64,000 bases of DNA from Cytophagales bacterium (GTDB lineage Bacteria; Bacteroidota; Bacteroidia; Cytophagales; Spirosomataceae). Below the pieces are notes generated by a model. It was given only the letters and a program-made list of their open reading frames with translations. It was not told the origin of the DNA and did no database searches. Positions 38,345 to 47,558 of this stretch are shown here, piece after piece. Made by a program: the position numbers and the translations under genes. Positions within the stretch are counted from its first letter, which is position 1; the number at the start of each line of letters is the position of its first letter. The stretch covers positions 124,001-188,000 of the forward strand of contig JAAFJP010000007.1 of assembly GCA_013298125.1 (NCBI GenBank). The letters are read 5' to 3'.

Positions 38345-38390
38345 CAAAAAAGGTGTAAACGTCAGACAATCTGATATTTACACCTTTAAT
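38345..38390 (-). terminator. Intrinsic terminator of the tRNA unit
   Basis: AAAGGTGTAAA and TTTACACCTTT form an 11-bp stem. On the minus strand it lies just after tRNA-Leu and is followed by TTTTTTGTTTTT. Confidence 0.88.
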
Positions 38391-38403: not shown

Positions 38404-38719
38404 TACCGGGGACGGGAATCGAACCCGTACGAACTTACGTTCACAGGATTTTCGTACCACTACAACTTTCGTTGCCACTGCCGAATTGCAGTTTTGGGGT
38501 CTGGACTTTCTCTTTACCGTGTTATGAAATTCATAATTTAGGTACTGCCTGTCAAGTCTCTACACCTTCCAATTCATTTCTGAAAAGGCTTGGCTCGGGA
38601 TTACCATCAGCTAAACTGTTAAGGATTCCCCGAATTTAAGCAGTTCTACATCAATCATTTCTGATTGAGCACTCAAATTTGTTTAAGTCCTGCGTGTCTA
38701 CCAGTTCCACCACCCTGGC
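38404..38719 (-). tRNA. tRNA-Leu(UAA) interrupted by a group I intron
   Basis: Exon 1 is 38685-38719 (35 nt; GCCAGGGTGG start) and exon 2 is 38404-38452 (49 nt). Joined, they give an 84-nt Leu tRNA. Its anticodon stem is CAGGA/UCCUG, the 7-base loop CUUAAAA has anticodon UAA, the long variable arm is AACG/CGUU-like, and the T arm is ACGGG UUCGAUU CCCGU. The acceptor stem is GCCAGGG/CCCCGGU, with one A-C mismatch and one G-U pair, and the discriminator is A. No CCA is encoded. Without splicing the anticodon stem-loop cannot form. tRNA-Gly lies upstream, and a terminator follows. Confidence 0.95.
38453..38684 (-). ncRNA. Group I self-splicing intron (IC3-like) in tRNA-Leu(UAA)
   Basis: The 232-nt insert lies between U34 and A35 of the anticodon, the classical site. 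Numbered 5' to 3' from 38684: P1 is exon ACUU with intron GAGU (nt 11-14) and a U-G pair at the splice site; P2 is UCAAUCA-GAAA-UGAUUGA; P3 ACUGCUU (41-47) pairs with AGGCAGU (135-141); P4 UUCGGG (51-56) pairs with CCCGAG (86-91); P7 GACUU (127-131) pairs with AAGUC (177-181); P8 UACC pairs with GGUA. P9-region hairpins CUGC/GCAG and CAAC-GAAA-GUUG follow. The last base is G (omega-G). Core strings UCCCGAGCCAAGCC and GGAAGGUGUAGAGACU resemble the Anabaena intron as I remember it. No open reading frame for a homing endonuclease is present. Confidence 0.95.
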
Positions 38720-38780: not shown

Positions 38781-38789
38781 TTTAAGCTG

Positions 38790-38862
38790 AGCGAAAAACC
38801 GGGTTCGAACCGGCGACCTCAACCTTGGCAAGGTTGCGCTCTACCAGCTGAGCTATTTTCGC
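38790..38862 (-). tRNA. tRNA-Gly(GCC)
   Basis: A 73-nt cloverleaf on the minus strand: acceptor GCGAAAA/TTTTCGC, D arm AGCTCAGCTGGTAGAGC, anticodon arm AACCT-TGCCAAG-GTT with anticodon GCC, T arm CCGGTTCGAACCCGG. Discriminator U, no encoded CCA. It contains GCGC in its D-stem region (38836-38839), the only GCGC I found in the window. Confidence 0.95.
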
Positions 38863-47351: not shown

Positions 47352-47398
47352 TTTTTTTACTTAATTTTTTCCTTCTACCTTTACACCACAATCACAAA

Positions 47399-47475
47399 AA
47401 GGGGTGCCTCATAACAACGGGCTGAGATTATACCCATTGAACCTGATGCAGTATAATGCTGTCGAAGGGAATTTT
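47399..47475 (+). promoter_or_regulatory. Thiamine pyrophosphate (TPP) riboswitch
   Basis: The THI-element strings are all present: GGGGTGCC, GGGCTGAGATTATACCC, GAACCTGATGCAGTATAATGC (partly read) and CGAAGGGAA. P2 (GGGGTG side), the CUGAGA TPP-binding loop, ACCC, and the GAACCUGA pyrophosphate-binding arm are in canonical order. It should repress the TonB receptor gene downstream when TPP is high. About 85 bases separate it from the start codon. Confidence 0.95.
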
Positions 47476-47558
47476 GTCAATCACGCAAAATGTAATGGTT
47501 TTTGTATGTTAAATCTGACAGGATTTGACTCCTTTATCTGTCTTAAAAATTTTCAACC

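Follow-up and report, generated by a model that had tools for sequence, protein, structure and literature searches.

How does a bacterium read UUA codons when its gene for tRNA-Leu(UAA) is broken inside the anticodon? The question is raised by a stretch of 64,000 nucleotides (the window) from a member of the Cytophagales (family Spirosomataceae), whose genus, judged by its relatives, is Arcicella. On the minus strand of the window, at positions 38404-38719, direct reading reveals a tRNA-Leu(UAA) gene in which a 232-nt insert separates U34 from A35. We take this position to be the insertion site of the tRNA-Leu(UAA) introns of cyanobacteria and plastids. Unless noted otherwise, all window coordinates below refer to the minus strand.

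The split tRNA-Leu(UAA) gene

The 5' exon (38685-38719, 35 nt) has U34 as its last base and is identical in intronless genes of the same genus. It is followed by the insert (38453-38684), whose last base is omega-G, and by the 3' exon (38404-38452, 49 nt), which starts with A35 and does not encode the CCA end. Both exons were read directly and recovered by ARAGORN. When introns are allowed, the program joins them into a full tRNA-Leu(taa) with a 232-nt intron inside the anticodon at the same place, as the preliminary description had laid the gene out. That description had also held that searches for contiguous tRNAs would miss the gene, and this is what happens: ARAGORN without introns reports only the neighbouring tRNA-Gly, and the Rfam tRNA model gives no match to the split gene. 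The acceptor stem contains one mismatched pair, A4-C69, which is no sign of decay because it is common to the intronless genes of the genus.

Just upstream lies an intact tRNA-Gly(GCC) (38789-38862), reported by both ARAGORN and the Rfam tRNA model. The same neighbour is present in five intronless genomes of the genus and in one whose intron carries an HNH reading frame. Downstream of the tRNA, a terminator-like hairpin followed by a T run was read at 38346-38387, and the HNH-bearing relative has a similar hairpin. Elsewhere in the window, a TPP riboswitch is located on the plus strand at 47390-47488 (59.7 bits).

The insert has the fold of a group I ribozyme

The Rfam group I model RF00028 matches positions 38480-38694 over its whole length (positions 1-253 of 253) with an E-value of 6.9e-11. 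The preliminary description had proposed this search as a check, and it supports the assignment; the score, 47.1 bits, falls 2.9 short of the gathering score of 50.

The helices listed in the preliminary description, including the interlock of P3 and P7, could all be laid out on the window sequence and compared across 40 aligned, non-redundant Leu introns. P1 (38671-38688, 7 bp) pairs the exon bases ACUU and the intron bases AAA with the guide UUUGAGU, placing a U.G pair at the 5' splice site; the UUU of the guide is also able to pair with AAA of the 3' exon (P10). The U.G pair is found in 40 of 40 introns, a conservation that is partly built in because the search pattern fixed the flanking exon bases. 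P2 (38651-38668) is a 7-bp hairpin with a GAAA loop, and all seven pairs show two-sided changes among the homologues. The same is true of the seven pairs of P3, formed by a 5' strand at 38638-38644 and a 3' strand at 38544-38550. The P4-P5 domain occupies 38595-38633, with the P4 strands at 38629-38633 and 38595-38599. P4 has 6 bp, the last of which competes with P6; it is paired in 99.5% of the alignment cells and is mostly invariant. P7, the guanosine-binding helix, is formed by GACUU (38554-38558) and AAGUC (38504-38508) and is interlocked with P3. Its 5 bp are paired in 100% of cells, with two-sided changes in two of the five pairs. The outer 3 bp of the P8 hairpin (38516-38543) are likewise paired in 100% of cells and show two-sided changes, and P9.2 (38463-38474), a hairpin with a GAAA loop close to the 3' splice site, shows them in four of four pairs.

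Over the whole alignment, standard pairs fill 89.7% of cells, compared with 73.5% in column shuffles, and none of 500 shuffles was as high on any of five pairing measures. Sliding the structure by 1-3 columns reduces pairing to 29-48% of cells. Covariation, in the form of two-sided changes, is present in 50 of the 65 drawn pairs. The covarying helices are P2, P3, P6a, P8, P8b, P9.0, and P9.2; P4, P6, and P7 are mostly invariant, and the window forms of P5b and P9.1 find little match in the other Leu introns. In folding energy, shuffled sequences do only moderately worse than the whole precursor (z = -2.35). It is the comparative evidence, not the folding energy, that is the strong part of the structural case. 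A covariance model built from the Leu introns (R1) matches the window with 156 bits; this model includes the window itself and, unlike RF00028, does not provide independent evidence.

From these comparisons, the insert is close to certain to be a group I intron. Among its visible peripheral features are a short P5 and P6, a single-hairpin P2, and a P9 extension. No homing endonuclease reading frame was found inside the window copy, in agreement with the preliminary description.

No other tRNA for UUA was found in the genome

The genome to which the window belongs contains 46 tRNA matches, in an assembly of 72 contigs that is 95.5% complete. The preliminary description had suggested that the genome might appear to lack tRNA-Leu(UAA). 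The tRNA model, a search with the contiguous pattern, and an intron-aware ARAGORN scan indeed found no second gene for it in this assembly. The other tRNA-Leu anticodons in the intron-aware scan are UAG (twice), CAA, and GAG. In eight open reading frames near the split gene, UUA accounts for 27% of 319 Leu codons. A loss of splicing would thus be costly; given the 95.5% completeness, a second gene might sit in an assembly gap. The same assembly also contains a 2.5-kb region with 11 tRNAs and no intron, possibly a prophage or a phage array (L189, G000:C18:32300-34800).

There is another RF00028 match in this genome, with 69.7 bits, and it falls within an initiator tRNA. This gene is interrupted after U33 and before C34 by a group I intron of 262 nt (L001, G000:C31:52953-55597, at about 1437-1774). 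The split tRNA carries the marks of an initiator, namely a mismatched first acceptor pair and GGG/CCC in the anticodon stem, which are absent from the two other Met-type tRNAs of the genome. It is the only initiator tRNA that was found there.

Intron-bearing and intronless alleles coexist within the genus

A survey of the same locus in close relatives, another check named in the preliminary description, revealed intronless, intron-bearing, and HNH-bearing alleles at one site. Five genomes of the genus contain a contiguous, intronless tRNA-Leu(UAA) gene. One further genome of the genus, G006, carries an intron of 745 nt that is identical to that of the window at 210 of 225 positions (93%) from the guide to the last G. 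The difference in length comes from an HNH frame of 171 codons that occupies the P1 loop and at its end enters the ribozyme. The Pfam matches of this frame are HNH_3 (E = 5.2e-5) and HNH (E = 0.0011), both just below the cut-offs. The genome of the window contains no copy of the HNH protein except for a match to the tail that is encoded by the ribozyme.

The order of events within the genus was approached with gyrB and a kinase gene as markers, since rpoB is missing from G006 and G002 and was unusable. In the gyrB tree, the intronless genome G004 and G006 are sisters (100/99), and both then join the window (100/99). This topology implies at least two gains or losses of the intron. The kinase-gene tree leaves the fork of G004, G006, and the window open. 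Co-conversion was considered on account of the 3' flank shared by the two intron-bearing genomes and is given no weight here, since the intronless relatives differ among themselves in this region. With flanks that vary in this way, and with small open reading frames of unknown function downstream of the tRNA in G004, insertion of an element at the tRNA end explains the shared flank equally well.

Distribution of the intron among bacteria

Among 119 relatives, 22 have group I matches; reading of the flanks named the host genes as tRNA-Leu(UAA), tRNA-fMet, tRNA-Arg(UCU), and tmRNA. The tmRNA introns occur in three relatives (L003, L007, and L010). In three other loci, from genomes of the family (L014, L022, and L023), group I introns interrupt the anticodon of tRNA-Arg(UCU), and two of these matches span about 570 nt. 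The contiguous tRNA-Leu(UAA) gene is present in 118 of 150 sampled genomes of the family, and nearly all relatives have a single copy.

Scanning 84,980 species genomes with one pattern returned 115 stretches. The pattern fixed the bases of the 3' splice site, so the scan shows only introns with that boundary. A minority of the stretches had no tRNA beyond the match and were set aside as chance matches. Both Leu exons are present in 88 loci, a count that includes the genomes of the family and in which a few genomes appear twice. They belong to several Bacteroidota families, Bacillota, Acidobacteriota, Bdellovibrionota, and one gammaproteobacterial record (L125); many of the intron-bearing genomes are metagenome-assembled, and some bins may be wrong. 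One of the loci is on a Bacteroidota chromosome of only 489,825 bp that retains the Leu intron (L129, CP063811.1). With the R1 model, a related intron in any host gene was found in 35 of 392 genomes sampled over Bacteroidota. The split Leu gene of the window is no isolated oddity.

Leu introns longer than 600 nt make up 21 of the 88, and most of these contain an HNH-type frame. Such frames have about 150-196 codons and the motifs ELHH.DGN..N and CPNCH; their place is the P1 loop in some introns and the stretch from P4 to P7 (P5/P6) in others. Four loci with two core-model matches were examined as possible twin ribozymes. Each proved to be a single ribozyme in which a long insert separates P4 from P7; the insert is HNH-coding where it is readable.

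Copies in phage tRNA genes

The same pattern is found in 18 contigs of IMG/VR, and a variant of the anticodon stem is found in 63. In most of these contigs ARAGORN reports an intron-containing tRNA-Leu(UAA), in several cases amid many other tRNAs, and some of the group I introns contain HNH frames (L208-L224 and L226-L288, together with L289 and L290). A terminase match was obtained in 4 of 14 phage records tested, and virion proteins lie near two; the phage identity of the remaining contigs is the classification of IMG/VR itself. One contig is identical to a region of the isolate Agrobacterium phage Atu_ph07 (L289, 110411-115811), which has no tRNA annotated at the split Leu site. In a 735-kb metagenomic phage, 98% of the window's gene is covered at 73%.

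No phage copy was found that could be a near-identical source of the window intron, and the pattern scan of the viral contigs gave no fMet introns. Several phage tRNA arrays contain more than one group I core (L232, with four core matches, L249, L270, and L287), and in these the ARAGORN output points to further split tRNAs, Thr and Met among them. For another phage contig (L219), ARAGORN gives an intact as well as a split tRNA-Leu(UAA).

A review from 2014 stated that the phage group I introns then known were all in protein genes, despite the many phage tRNA genes (PMC3984707). Our search of the literature, which covered open papers and few subscription papers, found no report of either a Leu intron in Bacteroidota or phage tRNA genes split by group I introns.

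Phylogeny of the intron core

A tree of the intron core was calculated from 137-154 columns; it contains no cyanobacterial rows and has many open forks. The window intron pairs with that of G006 (98/94), and the nearest beyond is a Saprospiraceae intron. Two introns from Bacillota-type metagenome-assembled genomes are placed among the Bacteroidota introns. A single clade (100/100), separate from the Leu introns, unites the fMet introns of six genomes, and each intron type therefore keeps to its own site. Placing the 16 Spirosomataceae Leu introns in one clade costs 67.7 log units and is rejected by the AU test (p-AU = 0.0017); a single clade of all Leu introns is not rejected (p = 0.48). Phage Leu introns mostly cluster separately from the bacterial ones, with a few mixtures, a grouping that is compatible with exchange and silent on its direction.

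Discussion

The reading that we prefer, with a probability of about 0.86, is that a group I intron of IC3-like type interrupts the gene, splices itself out to make an essential tRNA, and derives from a homing intron as a copy that lacks the endonuclease. In the transcript of the split gene, P1 would be docked by the P3-P9 core, and a guanosine bound in P7 would attack after U34. The released 5' exon would then attack after the terminal G, and the joined exons would form the only tRNA of the cell that reads UUA. Spread into intronless tRNA-Leu(UAA) alleles would occur by endonuclease cutting and repair, and the DNA may have moved between species, possibly by phages. The endonuclease would then have been lost in the window copy, or else gained later in its sister. 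Self-splicing is the strongest part of this proposal, homing of the relatives by HNH cutting is weaker, and phage carriage between hosts is weaker still.

A wider version is more tentative, and we rate it at slightly less than an even chance. It holds that a common pool of HNH-driven group I introns targeting tRNA anticodon loops moves among bacteria of several phyla and the tRNA genes in the phages that infect them, with phage arrays as carriers; from this pool the window intron would have settled in an essential tRNA without its endonuclease.

Among the other readings, the least improbable is that the ribozyme splices poorly alone or requires a host protein. Some group I introns use such proteins (PMC3984707), and the score just under the Rfam threshold and the modest folding advantage would fit. 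But no core helix is missing, the homologues show compensating changes in these helices, the intron differs from its sister at just 15 of 225 nt, and no other UAA tRNA was found, so that we consider this reading unlikely. That the split gene is a pseudogene, with UUA read by another tRNA, is very improbable: a second gene could fall in a gap of the 72-contig assembly, but neither exon is damaged, both agree with the intronless genes of the genus, nearly every relative has a single copy, and the split arrangement is kept in 88 loci.

The preliminary description had called the intron horizontally acquired or very old. Old vertical inheritance, with an ancestral Leu intron lost many times and no recent movement, would account for the common site, the single Leu clade that is not rejected, and the fidelity to site that is also seen in the separate fMet clade. 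It fits poorly with the contiguous gene in most of the family, the rejection of a single Spirosomataceae clade, the Bacillota-type introns among those of Bacteroidota, and the HNH-type frames in most of the long introns, and we give it only a small chance. A marginally smaller one is given to direct acquisition from cyanobacteria. In its favor are the same gene and the same anticodon insertion (PMC5733544, PMC4033280), and an alignment with an Anabaena intron, a lead only, agrees at 167 of the 211 bases compared. Against it, the nearest relatives found are other Bacteroidota introns, in a tree without cyanobacterial rows. With intronless and HNH-bearing alleles in one genus and the single-clade rejection, the choice offered by the preliminary description can be sharpened: the comparisons lean towards repeated gain and loss of the Leu intron in these bacteria.

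Several known systems resemble the one described here. The IC3 introns of cyanobacterial and plastid tRNA-Leu(UAA) share the tRNA, the insertion in the UAA anticodon, a similar size, and the order of the core (PMC5733544, PMC4033280). The present introns differ in the host phylum, in a presence that varies within one genus, and in the many Bacteroidota, Bacillota, and phage copies with HNH frames at the same site. The second intron-bearing tRNA of cyanobacteria is tRNA-fMet, where some introns carry an open reading frame (PMC5733544); the initiator tRNA of the window's genome is likewise split, at U33/C34, by an intron whose lineage is distinct from that of the Leu introns. Small group I introns in the anticodon loop that tRNA finders also miss are known from tRNA-Ile2 of Acidovorax and Burkholderia and from further proteobacterial tRNAs; they occupy tRNAs different from those described here (PMC8450103, PMC4033280). 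Group I introns in the T-loop of tmRNA, few of them with endonuclease genes, are known from the class Bacteroidia and Saprospiraceae as well (PMC11915505); they differ in host RNA and site and match the Leu model more weakly. Outside cyanobacteria, a deep-subsurface gamma-proteobacterium reportedly has an intron in the same tRNA-Leu(UAA).

The window intron itself is of a known kind, and the newer part of these results is the phage tRNA introns and the endonuclease-bearing Leu introns. The phage copies would change the 2014 picture, in which phage introns are confined to protein genes (PMC3984707). For genomes such as this one, group I introns explain missing calls of tRNA-Leu(UAA) and initiator tRNA. 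In textbooks, the intron of tRNA-Leu(UAA) stands for an ancient intron and is used to argue for a descent that predates plastids. With its site filled in some members of a single Bacteroidota genus and vacant in others, and with HNH forms and phage copies at hand, the gain, loss, and transfer of this intron become traceable and open to test.
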